46,285 nt of DNA, from positions 1 to 46,285 of IMG/VR virus record IMGVR_UViG_3300027499_000009; one strand, 5' to 3'. The notes under the pieces were generated by a model, which was not told the DNA's origin, did no database searches, and saw only the letters and a program-made list of their open reading frames with translations. Within the stretch, counting starts at the first letter, position 1, and each line of letters begins with the position of its first letter. This DNA is from a virus. Below are positions 1,652 through 41,661 of this stretch, one piece after another. Both the position numbers and the translations under genes were made by a program.

Positions 1652-4600
1652 ATGCTTCGTCGTGCCGACACCCCCAAGAAGTACGAGCATATCGACTTCA
1701 CTCCTCCCAAGTCGGTGGCGAACGCCGCCGAGAAGGGCTTGGAGTACCGGGAGAAGGCGTCCCCCTCTAACAAGGGCGGGTTGACCGTCTCCGAGGCAAG
1801 CAAGCAGGGCATCGGGTCGGGCGTGCAGCGTGCGGTGAACTTGAAGAACCGCAACACCCTCTCGCCTGATACCATCAAGCAAATGCACGGGTTCTTCTCC
1901 CGGCACGAGAAGAACAAGGGTGTGGCCCCCGAACACAAGTCCGAGCCGTGGAACGACAAGGGGAACGTGGCTTGGCTGTTGTGGGGCGGCGACCCCGGAC
2001 AAGCGTGGGCCGCGAAGGTGCTCGGACAGATGGAAGCCGCCGACGAGAAGGAAAAGGCCGTCAAGAAGGCTGCTATGGGCTTCGCCCGTGGCCGCACGGC
2101 TTCCACCCCGCCCACGCTTTACCACCTCACGACCCTTGCGGCTCTCCGCAAAATCATGCGGTCTAACCGGCTTCATACTGGCGCATTTCGCGCCGTGTCG
2201 TTCACCGAAGACCCTTCCCTGTTCGGGCAAGACTTTCAGTACGGTAACGACTTTGGGAACTCTACGGTTCGGATTGTGGTGGATGGTGCGAAACTTTCCC
2301 GAGATTATCCGGTCGAACCCCATGTTGATGGGCAGTCCGATAGGTTCCGTCGTGAGAAAGAGTGGCGGGTTCCGGGGCAGTCCGTTGATGAGTTGAGCCG
2401 GTATGTGAAGTGTGTGGAGGTTCTATCGCGGAGGCCCCACGACGAAACCGACCATTATTGGAAGCGGGTGGGTCTTGGGTGGGATCCGAAAAGAAAGGTT
2501 GATTTGCGGCAGAAAGTGTTGGATGAAGTCGTGAGCCTTGGGGAAAGCACCGGGTTCCGTGTTGTTGTGTCCCCCAAGCCCGGCGGTCGGGGGTGTGTGT
2601 CCTCGGACCTCGCCCGTGGCCGCACGGCTTCCGTGAACGGTGATGGTTCGTCGGTTGGGTTCTTCATCCCCCTGTCGGCGGAACTTGCCTCGCAGTACGA
2701 GGTGAAGCCCGAGGACACCTCGCCTCCGCATGTGACCTTCCTCTATGTGGGCAATGTCGCACCCGAGCAAGTGTCCACGTTCTTGCGGGTGGCACGCGGG
2801 GTGTTGCAGGACGCGCCCCCCGTGTTCGGGGTTCTGAACGGCGTGGACTCCTTCGTGCAGAAGGACAAGAACCAACGGGTGTTGTACAGCCGCGTGTCGT
2901 TCTCCCACGACCTCAAACCGTTGCGCGACCGCTTGTGGGCGGCGCTCACCGAGGCGGGCTTCAAGGTTGAGCAAGCGTTTCCCGCCTTCACCCCGCACGT
3001 CACCATTGAGTACCGGGACGGGTTGAACGACGCCGTTCTCGACCAAGCCGCCCCTTTGGGGTCTTGGGACTGTAAGACCATTGAGGTGTGGGGGCTCCCC
3101 AAGAAATACACCCTTCCCCTTGGTGGAAGGGGTGGCAAGCAAGCGCGCACGGCTTCCGGTATGTCCCTGTCGTTGGACGACCTCGGATACGGGAGCCTCA
3201 CGACGGACGAGGAAGCCTTGTTGCTCGCACCTTCGACGGCGTTCCCGGCAGAGGTTCTTGCCCTCATTCCGCAGGTGCCGTGCCCCGAGAACTCCTCCGA
3301 GGAGACGAGGCGCGAACTCGCCTACCTGCTTCGGTTGCAGCAGACGGCACGGCCCTATCTTGCCCAACAAGTAGTTGGGACCGACGAGAACGCTACGTCC
3401 ACCTTGGAGGCGTACTGTGCCAAACACGGGTTGGACGCAAGCGGTGTCCTCCCCGTAGTGCGTGCTGCCCGTTCGGTGCTTCTGCAAGTCAAGCGGCTCT
3501 ACAACCGCCCGCGCCCGTACCAACTGGCCGAGTACTTGGAGCCGGGGTTCCACCCCATGCCGTCTACGACGGCGCACACCCCGTCGTATCCGAGCGGGCA
3601 CTCGGCACAGGCGGTGCTCGTGGCCCTGCTCTTGTCGGGCCTCTACCCCGAACACCGGGAAGCGTTCATGGCTCTCGCCAAGGAGGTGGGGCAGCACCGC
3701 ATGATCGGCGGCTACCACTTCCCTTCGGACGTAGCCTACGGGGAGCAAATCGGGCGTGTGCTCTACGAGAGCATGGCCCGTGCTTCCGTGCGTACCGCCG
3801 CTGCCAAGTACAAGGACAAGAAGCAAGTCCCGAAGGCGGACGGGTCGGGCAAGACCACCGTGTACGTCTACTCCGAGCGGCAGGTGGCGAACCGGCACCG
3901 GGAGAAGGCCGAGCGGTTGGAGGACTTCAAGCCCGCGCTCGCGGAACTTCGCGCACAGGTCAAGAAAGACCTCGACAGCGACGACCCGAAGAAGAACTTG
4001 GTTGCCCTCGCCGTGGGGCTCATTGACGCGACCTATGAGCGGGTCGGCAACGACGAGAGCGCAGACAACGGGCACTACGGGGTCACCGGGTGGCTCCGTA
4101 AGCATGTCACGTTCAAGGGCAAGCGGGCCGTCATTCGGTACACGGGCAAGTCGGGCGTCAAGCACGAGAAGTCGGTGGACGACGAGGCCCTTGTTGGGGC
4201 CTTGAAGAAGTGCTGCGGCGACAAGGACGGGGAGGAGCAAGTGCTCTCCCTCGGGAAGCACGCGGTCACGTCGGGGGACGTGAACAAGTACCTCAAACCC
4301 TATGGCATCACCGCGAAAGACCTACGCGGGCTGCACGCGAACCGAGAAATGCAGGAACGCCTGCGGGCTATCCGTAGTAAGGGGCCGAAACTGCCCCGGC
4401 TCCGCAAGGAGCGCGACCCCATTCTCAAAGAGGAGTTCAAGCAGGCGTTGGAAGGTGCTGCCGAGGCCGTGGGGCATGAGCCCTCGACCCTGCGGAAGCA
4501 GTACCTTGTCCCCGGCATTGAGGACGCCTACATGAAGGACGGCACGGTGCCGCGTGACCTCACGGCGAGCACTCGCCGTGTCGCGGCCCTCTACTTGCGG

Positions 4601-6265
4601 GCCGCGAAGTCTGACGCCGAGCGTGAGGACGAGGAAGCCGAACGGCTTGTCAAGCCGGAACCCAAGTACAAGCCGCCCCGTGGTGACTTGCGCCGCCGTC
4701 GTGTTGATACGGAGCGGGACGACGACCCCGACAAGAAGCAGGACGACAAGGACAGGTCGCAGAACTACAAGGACGCTTCCGTTCGCGCCGTGGTTCAGCG
4801 TGTTGCTGCCGCGTGGTTGTTCAAGGTCGGGCAGGGCAACCCTTTGATGGAGCGGGCCAAGAAGGAGTTTGAGGCTTACGAAAAGAAGCACCCGGACACA
4901 GAACTTGATGTCAACACGTTCCTTGAACGGCTGGCACAACGCTCAAAGACCACTTCCGAGGGCTCAAACACGGACGCCGAAACCAAGGCCGACGCGGCGC
5001 ACTACGCCCAACAAGAACGGAAAGTCAAAACCGAGCGGGTGCAGAAACTTGTGGACAAGGTGAGCGCCGAGTGGGCCGAGTTGGAGAACTCGCTCCCTCT
5101 GACGAGCGAGAACCGTAAACGTATTTCGTCCTCCATTGAGTCGTACACCCCCAAACAGCGGGAGGAGTTCGCGAAGGCGTTCGCTTCTGCCCGTGAAGCG
5201 CATGTTCGCAAGTACTCCGACGAGGGTTACGACCCTGACGCGGTGAGCACCGCCCTTTTGGACATGGACGCCAAGTTCACGAAGGCCGACCCAAAGAGGG
5301 TCGCGGAACATGCCGTGGAGGTTATCTTCACCGACCGGGTGCTATTGAACCCCATGCTGCTCACGCCGGACGACCCTCTCTCTGACGACGAGGGCAAGGG
5401 CACGGCGGACCCAAAGAAGTCCGCTGCTCGGGTCAGTCAGTCTATTCAGCGGTTCTCCCGTGCCTCCAAGCGCGAGCGCGCAGAAATGTCCAAGCGCCTT
5501 GACGCGGCTATCCGTGAGGCTCCCGAAGGAACTGCAAAGCAAGAGGAGTTGCTTGCCGTCAGGTTCGGGCTTACCGCCGCAGAAGCACTTCACCCTATCA
5601 AAGAGGACGGGGACGACGAGGGCAAGGCAGACCAAGACCCCAAGCCTCCCAAGGGCATGTCAAAGGTCGAGTTCGGCCTCCTGCAACACCTCGCGGACGA
5701 CTCCGAAAAGTCCAGCGAACTGCTTGGGTTGTCCTTCCGTGCAAGCCGCAAGGACAAGTCCGCACAAGAGGACACGCGGAAGTTCGTCCGCGAAGCCACC
5801 CGCTCCATGAAGCCCGAGCAGATAAACAACCTGCTCCCCGAGGAAATGCAGTCCGCGTCATTGGCCGTTCGCAGCCTGCTCAAAGAAATGGCGTCTGACC
5901 GTGCTTCCTTCCGCAAGTCGAAGGGTAAGTCCACCGCCAAAGAGGACGCCGCTATCTCCGAGTACGAAGCCGAAATGGACGCCCTTGGCGACATGCTTGG
6001 GGAACGCCTCTCGGACCTCGTGGCGGACAGCGTGGGCCGGAAAGTCCAGCCCGAAGACGATGAGGTGGGTTCCGTCTACAAGAACATGGTGAAGAACCGC
6101 CCGAAGTTGAACGGCGGCAAGCCACCGTCCAAGAAGGACTTTGGTGCTTTCTTAGACGACCTTATGAAGTCTTTTCGCAAGTTGCTTGGGAACAAGGGCG
6201 TTACCGCCCACCTCCACCTTGCAGAACCGCCCCGTGTCTCGGTAGGGGGTCTATACCACTTCTAA
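1652..6265 (+). CDS. Giant polyvalent protein: ART-like, 2H phosphoesterase, PAP2 phosphatase, topoisomerase IB
   Basis: This 1537-residue protein has these domains in order. Residues about 35-130 form a domain I cannot name with certainty (FFSRHEKNK, WLLWGGD). Residues 155-245 look like an ADP-ribosyltransferase (YHLT, VSFTED, EKEWRV). Residues 330-485 are a 2H phosphoesterase of the LigT type, with HVT at 360 and 449. Residues 600-705 form a PAP2 phosphatase with all three motifs: K614-x6-RP, PSGH at 647-650, and H682-R-x5-H689-x3-D693. Residues 735-965 are a topoisomerase IB with the full catalytic set R797, K833, R892, H942 and Y951. The rest is a charged helical tail of about 560 residues. 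RTAS-like linkers mark the boundaries. Such multi-enzyme phage proteins are usually thought to be injected with the DNA; that role is inferred. The start ATG has AAGGTG upstream. Confidence 0.85.
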   Translation: MLRRADTPKKYEHIDFTPPKSVANAAEKGLEYREKASPSNKGGLTVSEASKQGIGSGVQRAVNLKNRNTLSPDTIKQMHGFFSRHEKNKGVAPEHKSEPWNDKGNVAWLLWGGDPGQAWAAKVLGQMEAADEKEKAVKKAAMGFARGRTASTPPTLYHLTTLAALRKIMRSNRLHTGAFRAVSFTEDPSLFGQDFQYGNDFGNSTVRIVVDGAKLSRDYPVEPHVDGQSDRFRREKEWRVPGQSVDELSRYVKCVEVLSRRPHDETDHYWKRVGLGWDPKRKVDLRQKVLDEVVSLGESTGFRVVVSPKPGGRGCVSSDLARGRTASVNGDGSSVGFFIPLSAELASQYEVKPEDTSPPHVTFLYVGNVAPEQVSTFLRVARGVLQDAPPVFGVLNGVDSFVQKDKNQRVLYSRVSFSHDLKPLRDRLWAALTEAGFKVEQAFPAFTPHVTIEYRDGLNDAVLDQAAPLGSWDCKTIEVWGLPKKYTLPLGGRGGKQARTASGMSLSLDDLGYGSLTTDEEALLLAPSTAFPAEVLALIPQVPCPENSSEETRRELAYLLRLQQTARPYLAQQVVGTDENATSTLEAYCAKHGLDASGVLPVVRAARSVLLQVKRLYNRPRPYQLAEYLEPGFHPMPSTTAHTPSYPSGHSAQAVLVALLLSGLYPEHREAFMALAKEVGQHRMIGGYHFPSDVAYGEQIGRVLYESMARASVRTAAAKYKDKKQVPKADGSGKTTVYVYSERQVANRHREKAERLEDFKPALAELRAQVKKDLDSDDPKKNLVALAVGLIDATYERVGNDESADNGHYGVTGWLRKHVTFKGKRAVIRYTGKSGVKHEKSVDDEALVGALKKCCGDKDGEEQVLSLGKHAVTSGDVNKYLKPYGITAKDLRGLHANREMQERLRAIRSKGPKLPRLRKERDPILKEEFKQALEGAAEAVGHEPSTLRKQYLVPGIEDAYMKDGTVPRDLTASTRRVAALYLRAAKSDAEREDEEAERLVKPEPKYKPPRGDLRRRRVDTERDDDPDKKQDDKDRSQNYKDASVRAVVQRVAAAWLFKVGQGNPLMERAKKEFEAYEKKHPDTELDVNTFLERLAQRSKTTSEGSNTDAETKADAAHYAQQERKVKTERVQKLVDKVSAEWAELENSLPLTSENRKRISSSIESYTPKQREEFAKAFASAREAHVRKYSDEGYDPDAVSTALLDMDAKFTKADPKRVAEHAVEVIFTDRVLLNPMLLTPDDPLSDDEGKGTADPKKSAARVSQSIQRFSRASKRERAEMSKRLDAAIREAPEGTAKQEELLAVRFGLTAAEALHPIKEDGDDEGKADQDPKPPKGMSKVEFGLLQHLADDSEKSSELLGLSFRASRKDKSAQEDTRKFVREATRSMKPEQINNLLPEEMQSASLAVRSLLKEMASDRASFRKSKGKSTAKEDAAISEYEAEMDALGDMLGERLSDLVADSVGRKVQPEDDEVGSVYKNMVKNRPKLNGGKPPSKKDFGAFLDDLMKSFRKLLGNKGVTAHLHLAEPPRVSVGGLYHF
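2082..2104 (+). repeat. 23-bp direct repeat, copy 1 (RGRTAS linker)
   Basis: The 23 bases coding for the ARGRTAS linker before the ADP-ribosyltransferase-like domain are repeated exactly at 2610-2632, before the 2H domain. Identity includes third codon positions, so the two linkers are recent copies or kept alike by recombination. Confidence 0.85.
2610..2632 (+). repeat. 23-bp direct repeat, copy 2 (RGRTAS linker)
   Basis: Exact copy of 2082-2104 at the next domain boundary of the giant protein, 528 bases downstream and in the same reading frame. Recombination between the copies would cleanly delete the ADP-ribosyltransferase-like domain. Confidence 0.85.
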
Positions 6266-6345
6266 ATGGTAGGCCCCTCCACGCCCTCCTCTTTGGGGGG
6301 AAGCAGTATAGCCAACCCTCCCCTCCGAACCGCAGGAGTCCTCCA

Positions 6346-7002
6346 ATGGCCCGTCTCACCCGCCAAGGGGCGCGCAACCTCACCGCTGCCCTCGACAACA
6401 TTGCCCAAGTCGTTCAGCACCGCGCTGCGATGCTCGGCCTCGACAAGCGCACGGCTACCGACTTCGCGTACCGCTGCGACCTCCTGTCGGACGCCATTGA
6501 GCGCACCGCCTCCGAGAACTTCCCCCTGCCCCGGCAGGCTGCGGAGAAGGGCAACGACGACGAGGGCATGAGTGTGGAGCACGGTGAGGGCGGGTTTGAC
6601 CCGAACCTCATTGGCGACGAGGTTCCCGGCCCGTTGGAGATTATCGAGCCCCCGAGCGAGCCGTGGATGGACGGGCACTTCACGCAGGAGAAGTACCACG
6701 TTCTTGGCGAGTTGCAGGAGGCGGGCGAACTTGGCCCGGTCCACCTCGCGTCCCTTCTGACCAAGGCTGCGGGCATCATTCTTGCCCAAGAGTCCGACAA
6801 GGAGGAGCAGGAGGAGGAGCAGCAGGAGGAGGTCAAGAAGCAGGCCAAGAAGGGCCAGCAGAAGGGCAAGGTTCCCCCGCAGTTCCTTGAGCAGCAGAAG
6901 AACAAGGCTGACGCCGAGGAGCAGCAGGAGGAGCAGCAGGAGAAGGGGGCCAAGAAGAAGGCTTCCGCCGCAAACGATTGGGGCTTCAACCTCTCTCGCT
7001 GA
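6346..7002 (+). CDS. Conserved phage protein with Glu/Gln-rich tail, head module
   Basis: This is a 218-residue protein. The first 70 residues are helical and include DFAYRCDLLSDAIE. The second half is very rich in Glu, Gln and Lys (runs of EEQQEE), and the protein ends in DWGFNLSR. The RBS GCAGGAG lies upstream of the ATG. It sits between the polyvalent gene and the head assembly genes and shares composition with the scaffold at 9297, so a virion or assembly role is likely. No enzymatic motif is visible. Confidence 0.65.
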   Translation: MARLTRQGARNLTAALDNIAQVVQHRAAMLGLDKRTATDFAYRCDLLSDAIERTASENFPLPRQAAEKGNDDEGMSVEHGEGGFDPNLIGDEVPGPLEIIEPPSEPWMDGHFTQEKYHVLGELQEAGELGPVHLASLLTKAAGIILAQESDKEEQEEEQQEEVKKQAKKGQQKGKVPPQFLEQQKNKADAEEQQEEQQEKGAKKKASAANDWGFNLSR

Positions 7003-11768: not shown

Positions 11769-12644
11769 ATGTCTGTCGCAAACAGCGTCAAGCAGAAGAT
11801 GATCTCGGAGTACATCAACACTCCGCAGGGTCGTGCCAAGTTGGCCGCGTCCATGACGCAGCCGCTTCGTCTGCGCCGTGACTACATGGCGGTCGGTCGC
11901 AAGACCTTCCTCGTGGAGCAACTGCCGGACGGCGCGCTGCCGATTTACGACAAGGATCCCGACGTGACCGCGTTCGTGGTCGGTGAGGAAGGCGAGAACA
12001 TCGTCGCAATCACCAAGCCGCGCCGCGTCATTTTCCCGCTCTTTGAGATTGCGTCCAACCCCGAGATCCCGCTCACGCAAATCAAGGAGCGTCGTTTCGA
12101 CCTCATTGAGCGCGCACAGGACTTGGCTCGGGCGCAAATCCAAGCAGCCGAGGACGAGCGGGTGTTCTCCGTTCTCGACGCCATCGCCACCAACGGGTTC
12201 GACTCGGTTTCGAGGCAGTTCAACCCCGACATTCCGGTTGTCGCCCCCATCAGCGGCGCGGTGCTCGCGGACGCCTACGCGGAGATTGAGCGCAACGACC
12301 TCCGGGTTGCTCGCGTGTTCATGAACGCTCGGGACTACGCGGACCTCCGCAAGTTCGGTCGTGACATTCTCGACATCGAGAGCCAGCGCGAACTTCTCAA
12401 GACGGGCCTCATGGGCACGCTTTGGGGCGCGCAAATCATCGTGTCGCGTCTCGTCCCGGTCGGCACCGTGTACGTCTGCTGCGAGCCCGAGATGTTCGGT
12501 CGGATGCCCGTCCGTACCGAGTTGACCGTGCTCTCTGCCGACGACCCGAAGGCCCGCACCATCGGCTTCTCGGTGTTTGAGAATATCGGTATCGGGGCCT
12601 ACAACCCCAAGGGCCTCACGCGCTTGACCATCACGCGCGCGTAA
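11769..12644 (+). CDS. Major capsid protein, HK97 fold
   Basis: This 291-residue protein resembles short HK97-fold capsid proteins. Features include the N-terminal helix with REYINTPQG-type sequence, RPRRVIFPLFEIASNPEI, the helix LIERAQDLARAQIQAAEDERVF, the late segment LWGAQIIVSRLVPVGTVYVC, and the typical end FSVFENIGIGAYNPKGLTRLTITRA. The N-terminus is short, which fits a separate scaffold. The terminator at 12667-12705 follows directly. Its last seven residues, RLTITRA, recur at the end of the downstream LAGLIDADG gene. Confidence 0.88.
   Translation: MSVANSVKQKMISEYINTPQGRAKLAASMTQPLRLRRDYMAVGRKTFLVEQLPDGALPIYDKDPDVTAFVVGEEGENIVAITKPRRVIFPLFEIASNPEIPLTQIKERRFDLIERAQDLARAQIQAAEDERVFSVLDAIATNGFDSVSRQFNPDIPVVAPISGAVLADAYAEIERNDLRVARVFMNARDYADLRKFGRDILDIESQRELLKTGLMGTLWGAQIIVSRLVPVGTVYVCCEPEMFGRMPVRTELTVLSADDPKARTIGFSVFENIGIGAYNPKGLTRLTITRA
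12621..12644 (+). repeat. 3' end of capsid gene, mimicked at 13697-13720
   Basis: These 24 bases code for RLTITRA and the stop. They match 13697-13720 at 19 of 24 positions, and every difference is synonymous (four third positions plus TAA versus TGA). Confidence 0.8.
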
Positions 12645-12705: not shown

Positions 12706-12757
12706 AGGGTGGACACCGTGGAGCATTTACGGTACGTTTTCGGAAACGTAGGTGCCC

Positions 12758-13720
12758 ATGCGAGCCGTACCGTGTCCCGTGTCCCCCGAAACCCTGCGCG
12801 ACCTCTACGCCGTGCAGAAGCAGACCGACCAAGAGATAGTCGAGCACCTGTGCGCGCAAGGCCACGATGCGACCTTGAAGCGGGTGCGCGCATGGCGACA
12901 ACGGTTCGGCATTGACACCGTGCCACGGTGGGCACGGCACGAAGTCACCCCTATCGAGGGCACGCTACGGTCGTTGCTCGTAGGCTCCATGCTCGGTGAC
13001 GGGAGGCTCGTCCACCGCACCAAGGCTACGCACTACGAGGAGTCGCACGCAGGGAACCAACTCGACTACTTGAAGTGGAAGGCCGAGGTGTGGGGGTCGG
13101 CATGGGTACGGGACTTACGCGAGGTGCCCGACACACGGGGGTTTCGCACCTACCGCATGTGGACGCACGCCCATGCTTCGCTGAACGAGTGGCAATCCCT
13201 GTTCTACGCGAGCCGGGAGAAAGGGTGGAAGCGGTTCTTGCCCGAGGTGGCAGACCTCGTTGACCCCTTTGCTCTCGCGGTGTGGTTCCTTGACGACGGG
13301 CACGCGGGGTGGTGGCCCGAGTTCGCGTTCGGGGCTGACGAGCCTTCTCGGCAGGTTGCACTCGCAGCCCTCGACAGGTTCGGGCTGCACCCCCGGTGGC
13401 TCCCCCGCAAGGGAAACACGGGGGTGTTCATCCTTGAAGGTGAGGCCCAAGCAGAGCACTTCCTCGCGCTTGTCCGTCCCTTCGTGCCCGCGTGCATGAC
13501 CTACAAACTCGACTTTGGGTTCCTTGGGCGGGGCTATCAGATGCGACAGGTCATGGACGAAGCCGTGCTGCGTCGGTTGGCGGGAGCGGGTGTGCCTTTG
13601 CGAGACATGGCCCGCCGACTTGGAGTGGGGGCGTCCACGGTGTCCCGGTGGCTCCGTGCTCTCGGCGTCGAGCATCCCCGCAAGGTAGGACGGCCCCGCC
13701 TGACGATCACCCGCGCTTGA
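12758..13720 (+). CDS. LAGLIDADG homing endonuclease with helix-turn-helix ends
   Basis: This protein of about 320 residues has two LAGLIDADG helices: LLVGSMLGDG near residue 75 and ALAVWFLDDG near residue 175, each with an Asp at the catalytic place. The segment between them (HYEESHAGNQLDYLKWK) is typical of the LAGLIDADG_2 type. Helix-turn-helix-like segments lie at the N-terminus (residues 10-50) and the C-terminus (MARRLGVGASTVSRWLRALGV). The start is ATG 12758, with GTG 12752 as an alternative; no strong RBS is visible. It is free-standing between two terminators, right after the capsid gene, and ends in RLTITRA exactly as the capsid protein does. Its likely role is to cut a capsid-gene allele lacking it. 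Confidence 0.85.
   Translation: MRAVPCPVSPETLRDLYAVQKQTDQEIVEHLCAQGHDATLKRVRAWRQRFGIDTVPRWARHEVTPIEGTLRSLLVGSMLGDGRLVHRTKATHYEESHAGNQLDYLKWKAEVWGSAWVRDLREVPDTRGFRTYRMWTHAHASLNEWQSLFYASREKGWKRFLPEVADLVDPFALAVWFLDDGHAGWWPEFAFGADEPSRQVALAALDRFGLHPRWLPRKGNTGVFILEGEAQAEHFLALVRPFVPACMTYKLDFGFLGRGYQMRQVMDEAVLRRLAGAGVPLRDMARRLGVGASTVSRWLRALGVEHPRKVGRPRLTITRA
13697..13720 (+). repeat. Capsid-like 3' end fused to the homing endonuclease
   Basis: It codes for RLTITRA plus stop, in frame with the endonuclease, and is the diverged partner of 12621-12644. The upstream flank (HPRKVGRP) no longer matches the capsid gene. Confidence 0.8.
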
Positions 13721-28364: not shown

Positions 28365-28877
28365 ATGGCTATCGTCTACCAACAGGGGCAAACCCTCGGG
28401 CGTGGGGACTTGGACATTTACCTCACGAACGCAGAGGGCAACCCTGCGAACGCCTACACTATCTCCTACGGCATTTACTACGTTGATCCCACCTCCTGCG
28501 CCGAAGTTCTCATTGGGCCGTCCGACCGCACGCCCGTGAACCCTGCGGTGGGCGAGTACTACGCGGCTCTGCAAGTACCGGGGACGGCTGCGCCGGGGAC
28601 GTACCGTATCCGGTGGCTCGTGCAGGAAACCTCTGCCACGCCGCAGACCGGGGCGGTGCAGGAGTTCGGCGTCGTGTCCTCGCAAGTGGCGACCACCGCG
28701 AACACCATGACAACTTGCATGGCCGACCTCGTGCGGAAGATGCGCGTGCTCACGCGGGACAACTGCTTGGGCGAAGAAACCGAGGTGTTGCTTTCCGTGG
28801 CAGGGGAGCCTGTGGTGGTGTCCTTGGGGGACTTGTACGAAGCCCTTCATGACCTGTCCCCACCCCCGCCTCGGTGA
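28365..28877 (+). CDS. Split structural gene, 5' half: N-extein plus 37-residue N-intein
   Basis: This is a 170-residue protein. Residues 1-133 are the N-extein: an Ig-like beta domain (DLDIYLTNAEGNP, GEYYAALQVPGTAAPGTYRIRW), then a helical linker ending VRKMRVLTRDN. Residues 134-170 form an N-intein: block A CLGEETEVLL with catalytic Cys134, then VVVSLGDLYEAL, and a Pro-rich end followed by TGA. The remainder of the intein and the C-extein are encoded at 29845. In trans, Cys134 would make the thioester and the halves would ligate at N133-S135 of the other part. A 37-residue N-intein fits the atypically split (near block A) class. The stop is followed, in the same frame, by the endonuclease gene. 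Confidence 0.88.
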   Translation: MAIVYQQGQTLGRGDLDIYLTNAEGNPANAYTISYGIYYVDPTSCAEVLIGPSDRTPVNPAVGEYYAALQVPGTAAPGTYRIRWLVQETSATPQTGAVQEFGVVSSQVATTANTMTTCMADLVRKMRVLTRDNCLGEETEVLLSVAGEPVVVSLGDLYEALHDLSPPPPR

Positions 28878-28892
28878 AGTGGTAGTTTCGTT

Positions 28893-29858
28893 ATGGGGCA
28901 GGGTAAGGTGAAACGCGGGACGCCCCTCCTCATGCCTCCCACACCCCAAGACCCACACCCTCTACTCACACCCCTCTTGACAGAGTATGGGGTGTCTTAT
29001 GCCGACTTTCGCAAGGTAGGGCGCGTGCCCCGAGGTCTTGTGGAAGTGCGCTCGGCTATTGTGACGCGGCTACATGAGTCGGGGATGGCGTGGGCCGCTA
29101 TGGTGGAGGTCACAGGGTTGTCCAACGGCTCCATTCAACGGCTCACCCGTGCCAAAGGGTGCCCCGCAGCCAAGAAGAACCGTGCGGAAAACGCCGCCCG
29201 CGTAGGACATGCGTGCAAGGGTAAAGCCAAGCCCGCCTTGTCGGCGTCCCTCAAATCGCGGTGGGCACGGGGAGACTTCAACCACCTTCGGGGAAGGGTT
29301 CGCACCCCCGAGGAACGCTCCCGACTGCAATCCACTTGGACACCCGAGCGCAGGCAACACCACTCCGAGATACGCAGGTTGTTGTGGGCCACCCCGGCAT
29401 ACCGGAACGGCTTGGTGTCTTTCCACCGCTCACCCGAGCAGCGTGTGTTGCGTTCCCATGCACAGTCGGCGCGCATGTTGAGTGACCCCGAGAAATGGAC
29501 TTGGGGCCGGGGGGCAAGCATTACGGGTGCAAAGCACCAAGGCCCTTCGACTTTTTGGGTGCGGAGCAGCCACGAGGTAGCCGCCGTGCGGGTGTTGGAA
29601 GCAGACCCCGAAGTGGTTGCCTACTTGTATGAGCCGAGGTTTACGCTCGCGGACGGAACTTTCGCCATGCCTGACTTCAAGGTGTTCCTACGGGACGGCA
29701 CCGCCAAGTTGGTGGAGGTCAAGGCCGCATGGGTGTTGTCGCTCCCTACAAGCCACAGGAAGGCTATACGCCTCGCCGTGTATCGTGAACTCGCCCAAGC
29801 GGAAGGGCTTCCGTTTGAGGTGTGGACGGAGAAGGACGCACTACATGGCTATCTCTGA
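28893..29858 (+). CDS. Free-standing PD-(D/E)xK homing endonuclease inside the split intein locus
   Basis: This is a 321-residue protein. Residues 60-90 contain a helix-turn-helix-like segment (WAAMVEVTGLSNGSIQRLTRAKG spread over two helices). Residues 100-200 are basic and probably touch DNA. The nuclease core lies at 221-310: FWVRSSHE with Glu228, then MPD with Asp261, then VEVK with Glu275 and Lys277. This is a PD-(D/E)xK/Vsr-like active site. It lies in the same frame as the preceding N-intein gene, with only a TGA and five codons between, and its end overlaps the start of the C-intein gene by 14 bases. It probably cuts intein-free alleles and spreads the locus. No strong RBS is seen. Confidence 0.82.
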   Translation: MGQGKVKRGTPLLMPPTPQDPHPLLTPLLTEYGVSYADFRKVGRVPRGLVEVRSAIVTRLHESGMAWAAMVEVTGLSNGSIQRLTRAKGCPAAKKNRAENAARVGHACKGKAKPALSASLKSRWARGDFNHLRGRVRTPEERSRLQSTWTPERRQHHSEIRRLLWATPAYRNGLVSFHRSPEQRVLRSHAQSARMLSDPEKWTWGRGASITGAKHQGPSTFWVRSSHEVAAVRVLEADPEVVAYLYEPRFTLADGTFAMPDFKVFLRDGTAKLVEVKAAWVLSLPTSHRKAIRLAVYRELAQAEGLPFEVWTEKDALHGYL

Positions 29859-30744
29859 AAGTCTCCGTGAACGACTGCGGGACGCCTTCATGCAGGGCAC
29901 CCTGCTTGCCCACTCCGTTGGGCCTACGGGCGAAACGGCATGGCAACCCGTGCAAGGGGTTCACCGTGCCGAAGTTTCGTGGGAGAGCGTGGTCGAAGTC
30001 ACGACCCCCCACGGGAGCATGGTGTTGACCGGGGGACACCGCGTCTACACGGCCCCTACGGAAAAGGTCGAAGCAGAAGGCTTGCAAGTGGGGCAGCGGG
30101 TGCTCTCTATCGGTGCCGGGGGTGTTGCTACTCTTGTTCCTGTCGTGGGCCTCGCGGTGCTGCCGCCCCGTCAGTTCATGTACGACTTGACCGTGGCCGA
30201 ATGGCACAACTTCCTTGTCTACCGTCCCGCCGTGGTTGTGAGTAACTCGCCCGACCGCAACTACCGCTTCCGGCCTCCCGAGAGCGAGGCGACCATCGGG
30301 TGCTACAACCAAGTGTTCGGCTATGTGTGGACGGACGAGGAGTTCGCGGACTACCTCACCATCGCCCTCGACAAGTGGAACCTTCACCCGCCCGAGACGG
30401 AAGAACTTCGGACGGTGGACATGGTGTGTCAGCAGAAGCCCGCGTGGCGTGCTGCGCTCTTGTGGGGGGCGTTGGTGAACGCTGCCCAAGCCCTCGCCTA
30501 CAACTGGACGGTGAACGAGTTCTCGTACTCCATTGGGGGTATCTCTCTCGACATTCAGCGCACTTCTTCCTACATGGACTTGAAGCGCAACGCCGAGGAG
30601 CAATGGGACAAAATGACCGAAGCCAAGTCGAGAACCGTAAAATATGTCCGTGGCTTGCAACAGCCCCGCTTCGGAAGGGGCGTTAGAAGCGCATTCGGCC
30701 CTTATGTCGGAAAGGGGGTTCTCTCCCCCCGAAACTTCGTGTAG
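29845..30744 (+). CDS. Split structural gene, 3' half: 134-residue C-intein plus C-extein
   Basis: This is a 299-residue protein from ATG 29845. Residues 1-134 are the C-intein: a helical start, block B SMVLTGGHRVYT with His65, GLQVGQRVLSI, block F FMYDLTVAEWHNFLV with His121, and block G VVVSN ending in Asn134. Ser135 is the +1 residue. The penultimate residue is Ser instead of the usual His. Residues 135-299 are the C-extein, starting PDRNYRFRPP and continuing with VFGYVWTDEEFADYLTIAL, a sequence I recall as one contiguous domain with RDNxPDRNYRF in other large phages. Splicing would give a 298-residue structural protein. Confidence 0.88.
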   Translation: MAISESLRERLRDAFMQGTLLAHSVGPTGETAWQPVQGVHRAEVSWESVVEVTTPHGSMVLTGGHRVYTAPTEKVEAEGLQVGQRVLSIGAGGVATLVPVVGLAVLPPRQFMYDLTVAEWHNFLVYRPAVVVSNSPDRNYRFRPPESEATIGCYNQVFGYVWTDEEFADYLTIALDKWNLHPPETEELRTVDMVCQQKPAWRAALLWGALVNAAQALAYNWTVNEFSYSIGGISLDIQRTSSYMDLKRNAEEQWDKMTEAKSRTVKYVRGLQQPRFGRGVRSAFGPYVGKGVLSPRNFV

Positions 30745-30806: not shown

Positions 30807-32309
30807 ATGCCCGTAGTCTGTCCTCATTGCTCTCACACCTTTGGTGGGAGCAAGGTTTCACCCCGGCACATAGCGAACTGCCCGAGTTGGCCCCGCACTC
30901 TCACGGAGCCGTGCCTGTGCGGCTTTCGGGGGGAGAGCGACAACAAACTGAAAGCCCACAAGCGGGCTTGCCCCTCATGGCAGGGACGGGACAAGAAGGC
31001 CGTTCGTGCTGAACGCTTGCGGGAGAACTCCCTCGCCAAGCACGGCGTCGAGAACCCCATGCGCTCGCCCGAGGCTGACCGAAAGCGCGCTGAAACCAAC
31101 CTTGCCCGCTACGGGGCCGAGAACCCGTTCGCCCGTGGGGCGAGCACCTACGAGAAGGTGCAGGCTTCGTTAGAGGGCAAGCGACCCGTGCTTCGGGGAG
31201 AGCAGAACCCCTTCGCCCGCCCCGAGGTGCAAGAGAAAATCCGCGACACCATGCGGGAACGCTACGGGGCCGAGAACCCGCAGCAAGTTCCCGACATTCG
31301 TGCGCGTACCACCGCGACCTCCCAAGAACGCTACGGGGGAGTTCTTCTCTCGTCTCCCGTGCTTGCAGAGAAAGCCCGTGAGACGAACCTCGCCCGCTAC
31401 GGTGAAGCGTTCCCGCAGCGCACCGAGGAGGTAAAGGCCAAGCAGCAAGAGACGAACCTTGCTCGCTACGGTGTGCCTTGGACGAGCATGAACCCCGAGG
31501 TGCGGGCGAAGCAGTTGGAGGCCCACCACGCGAAGTGGGGGTCGCACTACTTCGCCTCCGACGAGGGCAAGGCGCACCTTCGGGCGGCTCTCGTGGAGCG
31601 TTTCGGGGTCGAGTTCCCCGGTGCTATCGAGGGTCATTGGGAGAAGGCCGTGCAGACCTTCAAGGAGCGGTACGGGGTCGAACACCCGCTGCAACTCGCA
31701 GAGTTCCTCGACAAGCGCACCGACACGACCTTGGCGAAGTACGGGGTCGAGAATGTCATGCAAGATGCGGAGGTCATGGCGCGGTCGCAGGAAACCAACA
31801 GGGAACGCTATGGCTCACCTTTCTTTGTCTGCTCCGACGCCTTCAAGGCATGGAGCCAAAGCCTGTATGGGACAGACCACCCCATGCAGAACCCCGAGTA
31901 TGCCCGTCAGCACTTGGAGAAGATGTCTCCCTCACGAGGTGGGCCGAACGGGCTTGAACGCAAGGTCATGTCACTTGCTCCCGAAGGGTCGCTCCTGTTC
32001 ACGGGGGACTTCTCTTTTTGGCGGTGGCTCCCGGCTCTCGCTCGGCACAAGAACCCCGACTTCATTGCTCCCGGCCCCGACGCGACGAACCCGAAGAAGG
32101 GTGTCACCCGCGTGGTCGAGGCGTTCGGGGACTTTTGGCACTCGCGCATGTTCACCGGGAAAGTCCCGTGGGAGCATGAGCAGGAACTCATTGCCGCCTA
32201 CGCGGAGGTGGGCATCGAGTGCTTGGTTCTGTGGGAGTCCGAAGTCCTCTCCGCGCCCGACGAGGTGCGCGCACGGCTCGCGGATTTTCTTGCGCCATGC
32301 CCCCCGTGA
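30807..32309 (+). CDS. Vsr-like homing endonuclease with zinc fingers and RYG repeats
   Basis: This 500-residue protein has AGGAGG before the ATG. The N-terminal 50 residues hold two zinc-finger-like units (CPHCSHTF with HIANC, then CLCGF with HKRAC). Residues 70-385 contain about a dozen 20-30-residue repeats built on RYGxENP..xPE, of the kind found in phage homing-type nucleases (DUF7487-like). The C-terminal domain has KNPDFI, then VVEAFGDFWHSR and CLVLWESEVL, which is the Vsr/EDxHD nuclease layout. It lies just downstream of the split-intein locus with a T-rich, promoter-like gap (30745-30806). It probably targets a nearby conserved gene or tRNA region. Confidence 0.75.
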   Translation: MPVVCPHCSHTFGGSKVSPRHIANCPSWPRTLTEPCLCGFRGESDNKLKAHKRACPSWQGRDKKAVRAERLRENSLAKHGVENPMRSPEADRKRAETNLARYGAENPFARGASTYEKVQASLEGKRPVLRGEQNPFARPEVQEKIRDTMRERYGAENPQQVPDIRARTTATSQERYGGVLLSSPVLAEKARETNLARYGEAFPQRTEEVKAKQQETNLARYGVPWTSMNPEVRAKQLEAHHAKWGSHYFASDEGKAHLRAALVERFGVEFPGAIEGHWEKAVQTFKERYGVEHPLQLAEFLDKRTDTTLAKYGVENVMQDAEVMARSQETNRERYGSPFFVCSDAFKAWSQSLYGTDHPMQNPEYARQHLEKMSPSRGGPNGLERKVMSLAPEGSLLFTGDFSFWRWLPALARHKNPDFIAPGPDATNPKKGVTRVVEAFGDFWHSRMFTGKVPWEHEQELIAAYAEVGIECLVLWESEVLSAPDEVRARLADFLAPCPP

Positions 32310-32352: not shown

Positions 32353-32429
32353 TCCCGAGTAGCGCAGTTGGTTAGCGCAACGGACTGTTAATCCGTGGGC
32401 CGCTGGTTCGAGTCCAGCCTCGGGAGCCA
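32353..32429 (+). tRNA. tRNA-Asn (GTT)
   Basis: Acceptor stem TCCCGAG/CTCGGGA, D-loop AGTTGGTTAGCGC, anticodon loop CTGTTAA giving anticodon GTT, T-loop GTTCGAG, discriminator G and an encoded CCA. It is 77 bases long and complete. Confidence 0.95.
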
Positions 32430-32438
32430 TTTCCGTGG

Positions 32439-32528
32439 GGTGAGGTGGCCGAGTGGTCTATGGCGCACGCTTGGAAAGCGTGTGTGCTCTCAAAGGCACC
32501 GTGGGTTCAAATCCCACCCTCACCGCCA
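32439..32528 (+). tRNA. tRNA-Ser (GGA)
   Basis: Acceptor stem GGTGAGG/CCTCACC, a long variable arm (GTGTGCTCTCAAAGGCACC), anticodon loop with GGA, T-loop GTTCAAAT, discriminator G and an encoded CCA. It is 90 bases long. TCC, its best codon, is frequent in the structural genes here. Confidence 0.95.
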
Positions 32529-40013: not shown

Positions 40014-40651
40014 CTGAACTCCGCATCGAGTGCCTTGCCCTGCGCGCCGACGCCCCTGACCTTGGGCTTGCCCTTCGTCGGGGTGAAGTGGCGTGGCTCC
40101 CCTTGGGGAGCCTCGACACGTCCGCGTGCCTTCGTGCGCTGAAAAACATGGGCGCGGTATCGGTAGTGTCTGCACAGAGGTGCGCCACCATGCGAAATCC
40201 TGCTCCCCCCGCCTCCCGCCTGACGCGGAAGCCGCCAATCAAGCGCATCCCCGCCGCAGCCCCCGTAGCCCCTCTTGCGCCACAAGACATTGACGCCCGC
40301 ATTCAGCAAGCCGTGGACGGGGCCGTGGACCGTCTTGCGGAACGCCTCTTTGCCGCTCTCGGGAACGCCCCGTCCCCCAAGGCCGCATTGGACGAAGAAG
40401 CAATCTCGCGGGCCGTGTCCTCTGCCGTGTCCTCCGTGTTGGCCCAACAAGGGGCGGGTGGCACGGTTGCAGGCTCTACGCCTCGTGTCGCGGGGCCTGC
40501 CGACCCCGTGTATATCCCAACGGGTATTGTCTCTGATACACCCGTAGACTTTCAAGTTGCAGCGCAAGCCGCCGACGCGGGCGACCTCGCAGGAGCAGCC
40601 TCGGCACTACGCAAGACCCGCACCCGCAAGACCACAGGAACCACCGAATGA
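40010..40651 (+). CDS. Hypothetical structural-operon protein
   Basis: This is a 213-residue protein. Residues 1-60 form a small domain (LGLALRRGEVAWLPLG, GAVSVVSAQRC). A helical Ala/Pro linker follows (residues 85-150) and then a C-terminal helix with RKTRTRKTT. The first part has the pattern of a short domain that I recall in large phages next to tail genes. It is translationally coupled at both ends (ATGA). The role is unknown. Confidence 0.6.
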   Translation: MTELRIECLALRADAPDLGLALRRGEVAWLPLGSLDTSACLRALKNMGAVSVVSAQRCATMRNPAPPASRLTRKPPIKRIPAAAPVAPLAPQDIDARIQQAVDGAVDRLAERLFAALGNAPSPKAALDEEAISRAVSSAVSSVLAQQGAGGTVAGSTPRVAGPADPVYIPTGIVSDTPVDFQVAAQAADAGDLAGAASALRKTRTRKTTGTTE

Positions 40652-41661
40652 GCACCGACAAGAACGCCAAGCCCAACCGTGGAACGGGCCTCGACCTCGG
40701 CACCATGAACATCGTCTCTGCCCGCAGCAAGGCGGGCAAGGTCGAGTTCTCCCGTGTCCGTGACGCCTTCCTCGACCTCGACGTTGGGGCAAAGAAAATG
40801 CTCAAACTGTCGGGCGTGTCTTACGTCGAGCGCGGCGAGAGCATTGTTGTCATTGGTGACGCCGCTATGGAAATGGCGAACGTCTTTGGCCGGGAGGCCC
40901 GTCGCCCCCTCTCTCGCGGCTTGGTTGCCGCCGGGGAGTTGGAAGCCCTTGAAGTGCTCGGGGTCATGGTGAAGAACGTCCTCGGCCCGCCCGTGGAGCC
41001 GAACGAGGTCTGTTACTTCTGCATCCCCGCTGCGCCCGTGGACGAGGACCGGGACGTGGTGTACCACCGGGGAGTGTTTGAGCGCATTGTTACCGAGTGC
41101 GGCTACAAGGCCATTGCGTCCAACGAGGCAATGGCAATCATCTACTCGGAGACGGCGAACGACGGCTTCTCGGGCCTCGCTATCTCCTTCGGCAGCGGCA
41201 TGTGTAACGTCGCCCTCGCCGTCAATGGCATTGAGGGCTTCGCGTTCTCCGTGGCCCGTGGGGGAGATTGGATTGACGAGGGTGCGGCGAGGGCGGTGGG
41301 CAGCACCCGCTCCCGCATTTGTGCCTTGAAGGAGAAGGGTTTCGACCTCATGGCCCCGGTGGGGCGGGAGCAGGAAGCCCTCGCGCTTTATTACAAGGCG
41401 CTCATTGAGTATTGCTTGGAGAGCACGGCCCGCGAGTTCCTCCGCATCAAGGACAAGTTCTCGCTTCCGAAGGCTATCCCCTTCGTGGTGTCGGGGGGTA
41501 CGAGCCTCCCGACGAACTTCATCCCCTTCCTCACCTCGGTCTTTGACCGCATGAAGAAGAAGTTTCCGTTGGATGTCAGCGAGGTTCGCCACGCTTCCGA
41601 CCCTATGAACGCCGTGGCGCGTGGGCTGCTCATTCAAGCCCTGCAAGAGTACGACGACTGA
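40648..41661 (+). CDS. Actin-fold ATPase (ParM/MreB-like)
   Basis: This is a 337-residue protein with the actin/Hsp70 superfamily motifs: phosphate-1 GLDLGTMNIVSA near residue 13; the connector NEAMAIIYSE near 160; phosphate-2 LAISFGSGMCNVALAVNG near 177; GGDWIDEGAARAV near 208; and the adenosine motif PFVVSGGTSLP near 280. It is well within the length of ParM or FtsA-like proteins. It lies inside the tail operon (ATGA overlap with the gene before), unlike plasmid or cell-shape actins. It could form filaments that position virions or DNA, or act as an assembly ATPase. Confidence 0.85.
   Translation: MSTDKNAKPNRGTGLDLGTMNIVSARSKAGKVEFSRVRDAFLDLDVGAKKMLKLSGVSYVERGESIVVIGDAAMEMANVFGREARRPLSRGLVAAGELEALEVLGVMVKNVLGPPVEPNEVCYFCIPAAPVDEDRDVVYHRGVFERIVTECGYKAIASNEAMAIIYSETANDGFSGLAISFGSGMCNVALAVNGIEGFAFSVARGGDWIDEGAARAVGSTRSRICALKEKGFDLMAPVGREQEALALYYKALIEYCLESTAREFLRIKDKFSLPKAIPFVVSGGTSLPTNFIPFLTSVFDRMKKKFPLDVSEVRHASDPMNAVARGLLIQALQEYDD

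Follow-up and report, generated by a model that had tools for sequence, protein, structure and literature searches.

A predicted split intein enclosing a TnsA-like nuclease gene in a likely virion gene of a huge phage, with relatives at the same and at a second site

Fractured genes, in which split inteins are accompanied by free-standing endonucleases, were reportedly described by Dassa et al. in 2009. The PolB gene of jumbo phage MIJ3 is a fractured gene with an HNH gene (PMC6892783). Short-N split inteins are already known as well (PMC10189870, PMC11923092), including AceL/GOS TerL and PolB16 OarG (PMC10189870), and inteins have been reported in phage TerL, two in one gene included (PMC7886860). 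Here we analyzed the virus record IMGVR_UViG_3300027499_000009 (46,285 bp, hereafter the window; coordinates are window positions), in which an earlier note had pointed to an atypically split intein in a phage structural gene. We find that this locus is very probably a mobile 'fractured gene', carrying a Cys1/Ser+1 intein split after block A and inserted between host residues 133 and 134. The locus is laid out as follows, L003, L004 and L005 being relatives with an uninterrupted host gene.

28365 to 28763, plus strand: N-extein, host residues 1-133, immunoglobulin-like N-domain and start of the helical domain (gap-free alignment to L003, L004 and L005; layout from the L003 model)
28764 to 28874, plus strand: N-terminal intein half (IntN), 37 residues, block A CLGEETEVLL, Cys1, followed by the stop codon 28875-28877 (Cys1 invariant in 20 aligned inteins)
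28893 to 29858, plus strand: gene of a predicted TnsA-like PD-(D/E)XK nuclease, 321 residues, invariant E228, P260-D261, E275 and K277 (NF033179, PF08722, alignment)
29828 to 29836, plus strand: Shine-Dalgarno-like GGAGAAGGA, within the nuclease 3′ end, 8 nt upstream of the C-half ATG (sequence)
29845 to 30246, plus strand: C-terminal intein half (IntC), 134 residues, block B TGGHRVYT, block F YDLTVAEWHNF and block G VVVSN (block residues invariant in 20 inteins)
30247 to 30741, plus strand: C-extein from Ser+1, host residues 134-298, followed by the stop codon 30742-30744 (77-95% match to uninterrupted genes)

The N-half gene (28365-28877, 170 residues) has as its C-terminal 37 residues CLGEETEVLLSVAGEPVVVSLGDLYEALHDLSPPPPR, whose Cys is residue 134 (codon 28764), while the first 134 residues of the C-half gene (29845-30744, 299 residues) finish with VVVSN and are followed by Ser+1 (codon 30247). 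The coordinates and lengths previously given for the two intein halves were thus right. So was the placing of the break between blocks A and B: the 37-residue IntN stops before block B, a position common to the 23 split carriers described below. The insert itself (28764-30246, 1,483 bp, not divisible by 3) is limited exactly by the Cys1 and Ser+1 codons and contains, in this order, IntN, the nuclease gene and IntC. The nuclease open reading frame (ORF) shares 14 bp with the start of the C-half gene, whose Shine-Dalgarno-like sequence is encoded by the nuclease C-terminal W-T-E-K/E codons. The same arrangement was present in most carriers.

Residues 1-133 and the C-half from Ser+1 together make joined exteins of 298 residues. 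These aligned over the full length, with zero gaps, to the uninterrupted 298-residue genes of L003 (90.6% identity), L004 (87.6%) and L005 (66.9%); accordingly, the flanks VLTRDN and SPDRNYRF read as one domain after joining, and the joined length is that of the uninterrupted homologues, as the earlier note had anticipated. L003 DNA tracks the window to position 28763 and picks up again at 30250, hence the insertion is exact. All three relatives have Asn at the insertion point (RDN/NPDRNY), against Ser in the window. Since gap-free 298-residue homologues exist and about 24 further phage contigs carry this insertion, the interruption is not a matter of chance. The homologues might have been naturally two proteins ending at these points, but the uninterrupted ones are single chains of 298 residues, and all two-protein forms of the host that were found bear intein halves.

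Cys1, the Thr and His of block B, the Asp of block F and the terminal Asn were invariant across 20 aligned inteins, and the block F His was kept in all but that of L102. All 21 carriers tested had Ser or Cys at position +1, versus one of 95 empty alleles (p=3.4e-22; the sequences are related and this value overstates their independence). Chance occurrence of the motifs was rejected on this bias and on the gap-free continuity of the exteins. In 20 of the 21 carriers the +1 codon was TCN or TGY, at least two changes away from the AAC/AAT of empty alleles, and therefore most likely moves with the element. The only empty allele with Ser at +1 (L057, TCC codon) is a possible scar of precise intein loss. 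Gln at position −1, considered as a co-conversion signature, was dropped: 24 of 95 empty alleles have it too (p=0.06).

A single-sequence search of the PDB with the intein returned nothing convincing, and profiles were needed. At E<0.01 the joined-intein profile had 15 matches in the PDB, almost exclusively to inteins, the best being MJ0781 (2jmz) at 2.6e-9, and the joined window intein matched TIGR01445 (intein_Nterm) at 7e-4, under the cut-off of this model. The AlphaFold2 model of a contiguous, single-chain relative (L092; mean predicted local distance difference test score, 75) had as its nearest solved structure VidaL (E 2.5e-5), itself an atypically split intein, then DnaB and RecA inteins. 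These profile and model matches agree with the intein fold expected from the earlier note. Together with the conserved residues, they support an intein of Hint fold, split between blocks A and B and predicted to splice. A bacterial intein-like or toxin-type Hint domain, suggested by a weak PT-HINT match, was rejected, as the element lies between exteins that are whole elsewhere.

Carriers were collected by IMG/VR scans with the host protein, the N-half, the nuclease and the intein, plus one phage record; their counts are those of the matches listed and are no census. At least about 25 distinct carriers, the window included, have the intein at the identical site (site a), all in the host gene, 23 being split and two contiguous. 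In at least 16 split carriers the gap holds a TnsA-like nuclease of about 250 residues or more (the window, LR745208.1 (L006), L087, L088, L091, L102, L109, L118, L123, L126, L133, L140, L149, L152, L188 and L205). L116 carries an HNH gene instead, and in at least six others (L093, L113, L114, L125, L190 and L198) the nuclease is eroded or gone. Two contigs, L092 and L119, have contiguous in-frame inteins of 154 and 162 residues. Among relatives, site a was thus found empty, split, split without nuclease and rejoined. Searching a prokaryote genome collection for the intein gave none. When presence and absence of the site-a intein were mapped on a tree of 113 exteins, its 24 carriers required at least 20 changes, and both of the window's closest relatives had an empty site. 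Intein and extein identities were only partly correlated (r=0.52). Such a patchy distribution is that predicted for a homing element with some vertical persistence.

Loss of the nuclease could be followed at the sequence level. L198 lacks 771 bp from within the nuclease gene, and its DNA on the two sides of this deletion is 100% and 99.1% identical to that of L149. The gap of L093 contains a 33-residue ORF, MLEGLLTKFELTREQLNKKGRVSKEIVEKELGL, recognized by a nuclease profile (1.9e-6) and apparently made of the two termini of an L126-type nuclease without its middle. Similarly, L114 retains MKSNQPHQKLLPLLKKYEVF, the counterpart of the L109 nuclease start (compared by eye).

The same host gene is interrupted at a second position, site b (DEF/YSIGG), in at least 13 contigs, eight of which are also interrupted at site a. 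The site-b inteins share homology with those of site a (E 2e-21 to 5e-30) as well as the position of the split, but begin with Ser and have a nuclease of the Vsr/MTES_1575 type. The intein appears to belong to a mobile family that is widespread and also occupies a second split site of this gene. Both sites are split, and the host protein is encoded in three pieces, in L093, L109, L114, L118, L188 and L190. L123 has a contiguous site-b intein that reads ATAAAAGAGGAGCGTATGATGGAT, where the end of the N-half gene runs into the C-half ribosome-binding site and start codons as found in L093 and L160. Because L123 keeps these signals of the split form, its contiguous intein is indicated to derive from a split ancestor by deletion. 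Two further contigs extend these observations. In L091, a third, contiguous intein lies near the host C-terminus (3221-3694; it starts SVLGSTQ and ends ILSHN, then Ser). In L214, which is binned with a Candidatus Altiarchaeales metagenome-assembled genome, site b of the host gene is split and associated with a Vsr-type nuclease of reduced length (5001-6831).

Taken together, we consider it likely that one huge-phage virion-type gene is a hotspot for homing split inteins, with a life cycle leading from the empty allele to IntN, nuclease and IntC, then by nuclease deletion to the bare split intein and by re-fusion to the contiguous one. This scheme would involve two sites, one short-N split and different nucleases. 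Since the two related split sites lie in one gene, some phages must then trans-splice one protein from three pieces.

The middle gene was assigned to TnsA-like PD-(D/E)XK nucleases by profile and alignment. PF08722 matched 14 of 14 aligned nuclease copies (best 1.2e-9; the window copy alone, 0.016), and the window copy matched NCBIfam NF033179 (TnsA-like) at 3.5e-5, under the cut-off of the model. The candidate active-site residues E228, P260-D261, E275 and K277 were invariant in the 14 copies. A PD-(D/E)XK nuclease gene between the halves, as claimed before, therefore stands. This nuclease is a predicted homing endonuclease that probably spreads the insertion.

That it is instead an unrelated passenger in the gap of a real split intein, and not the homing endonuclease of the site, seems rather unlikely. 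An HNH gene occupies the gap of L116, several carriers have no nuclease and the related site-b intein is associated with a Vsr-type enzyme, all of which would fit a passenger. Against this, the TnsA-like gene sits in the exact gap of 16 of 23 split carriers, relics of it persist in nuclease-less ones and full-length relatives were found, among the matches listed, only in this gap.

Looser relatives of the nuclease lie in or beside major capsid protein genes (L177, 3470-4387; L178, 3212-4741), and the family may also be used by introns or by other elements inserted into structural genes. Others (L182, L184 and L185) resemble, by interpretation, T4 gp4-type head-completion proteins.

We then consider whether the gene is simply broken, the insertion being decayed or non-splicing and the half-proteins working unligated or dead. 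Some phage enzymes do function in two pieces, their gene being divided by that of a homing endonuclease (PMC10448857). However, the ratio of nonsynonymous to synonymous substitution rates (dN/dS) between diverged carriers was 0.06-0.29 for the intein halves and 0.18-0.31 for the nuclease, including pairs with a nuclease-less partner. These values argue for purifying selection on both, and the conservation of IntN and IntC extends to nuclease-less carriers. Moreover, the catalytic residues and Ser/Cys+1 were retained in all carriers tested, and the host protein is one chain throughout the 95 empty alleles. A broken gene is accordingly very improbable.

A group I or II self-splicing intron with an ORF, its intein-like ends being misread, has a negligible probability: nuclease-bearing introns are common in phage genes, and capsid genes have looser relatives of this nuclease within or beside them, but an Rfam gathering scan of the window found no intron family and only two tRNAs, protein-conserved coding sequence under purifying selection continues from both exteins into the insert, conservation covers the +1 nucleophile as well as the block residues, and in L092 and L119 the same element is one uninterrupted in-frame protein, so that the scan and these contiguous relatives led us to reject it.

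The mobile fractured gene would operate as follows. The half-proteins would be translated separately, the C-half from the ribosome-binding site that the nuclease gene carries at its 3′ end. IntN (37 residues) and IntC (134 residues) would assemble into one Hint fold, followed by acyl shifts by Cys1 and Ser+1 and cyclization of the terminal Asn, and the exteins would be joined into the normal 298-residue protein. The TnsA-like nuclease, made separately, would cut the empty allele in co-infecting phages, and repair would copy the whole 1.48-kb unit, Ser+1 codon included, into the cut allele. Subsequent erosion of the nuclease would leave the split intein bare or re-fused into a contiguous form. 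In this scheme we infer that the intein splices, that the nuclease cleaves DNA and drives homing, and that the host protein has a role in the virion.

The host is likely a virion protein of a huge phage and probably a head-tail connector. Upstream in the window are a head maturation protease gene and the major head protein gene (11769-12644), and the homologue of Tunturi_5 is annotated as head-tail connector. The L003 host-protein model combines an N-terminal beta-sandwich domain with a helical C-terminal one; a search with it gave no match to the host fold among solved structures, and its matches among phages were proteins of Bacillus phage G and other phages, of uncertain role.

Several points weigh against the reading given here. 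In the window and in most members, Ser takes the place of the usual penultimate His of the intein, and the window intein scores under curated family cut-offs. The structural model is that of the contiguous L092, from which the two-chain 37+134 form of the window differs. The number of presence/absence changes on the tree does not separate gain from loss, and a search of the PDB with the nuclease profile gave no solved-structure match. Finally, the PHROG 'head-tail connector' family (phrog_17327) matches eight of 49 host-family members (best 1.9e-5) and leaves the window copy unmatched.

Other putative nuclease genes are present in the window. Directly after the C-half (30807-32309), a DUF7487 protein (1.2e-43; homing endonuclease PHROG) carries, apparently, a C-terminal Vsr/EDxHD-like nuclease domain; DUF7487-like genes also follow the host gene in L004, L006, L088, L113, L116 and L140, intein present or not. 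A LAGLIDADG homing endonuclease gene (12752-13720, Pfam 1.7e-15) lies directly after the major head protein gene. Elsewhere, the window contains a strong match to Volactin (40648-41661; PF25216, 9.3e-74), a family named after an archaeal actin homologue and found here in a phage contig, a 1,537-residue ORF fusing 2′-5′ RNA ligase-like, PAP2 and eukaryote-type topoisomerase I domains (1652-6265) and two adjacent tRNA genes (32353-32525, Rfam).

The origin and loss of split inteins are an open question, and here many stages are sampled at one site. A contiguous intein with the ribosome-binding site of a split ancestor would, if true, imply a passage from split to contiguous, opposite to the usual model. 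Beyond DNA-metabolism enzymes, fractured genes would now include one for a virion-type protein, and intein homing would gain a nuclease class. The family also offers some two dozen varied short-N split inteins of natural origin, a type in demand for protein ligation and labelling, along with pairs that would act in one protein and are probably orthogonal. In the papers searched, neither a split intein in a head-tail connector or another virion protein nor a TnsA-like nuclease in one was reported, this absence being weak evidence.

As in the fractured genes of Dassa et al. 2009 and MIJ3 PolB, a split intein disrupts a conserved phage gene, and its two halves flank a gene for a nuclease. In contrast to these, whose hosts are DNA-metabolism enzymes and whose nucleases are HNH or Vsr-like, the host here is a probable virion protein, the nuclease of the window is TnsA-like, the break follows block A and nuclease-less, re-fused and three-piece states are sampled at one gene. 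Like AceL/GOS TerL, PolB16 OarG and VidaL (6vgv), the intein breaks soon after block A and has a long IntC; it differs from them by its host gene, its insertion sites and the intervening nuclease gene, and its IntN of 29-37 residues is longer than the approximately 15-25 reported for short-N split inteins (PMC11923092). Similarly, the nuclease shares with TnsA-like families (PF08722, NF033179) the E...PD...ExK active-site pattern in the matching region, with window copy scores under the family cut-offs, whereas its long extra N-terminal region, its location in a fractured gene and its lack of a transposase partner set it apart. Thus, the fractured gene and the short-N split intein are of known kinds, while the host gene, the nuclease and the sampled life cycle appear to be new.
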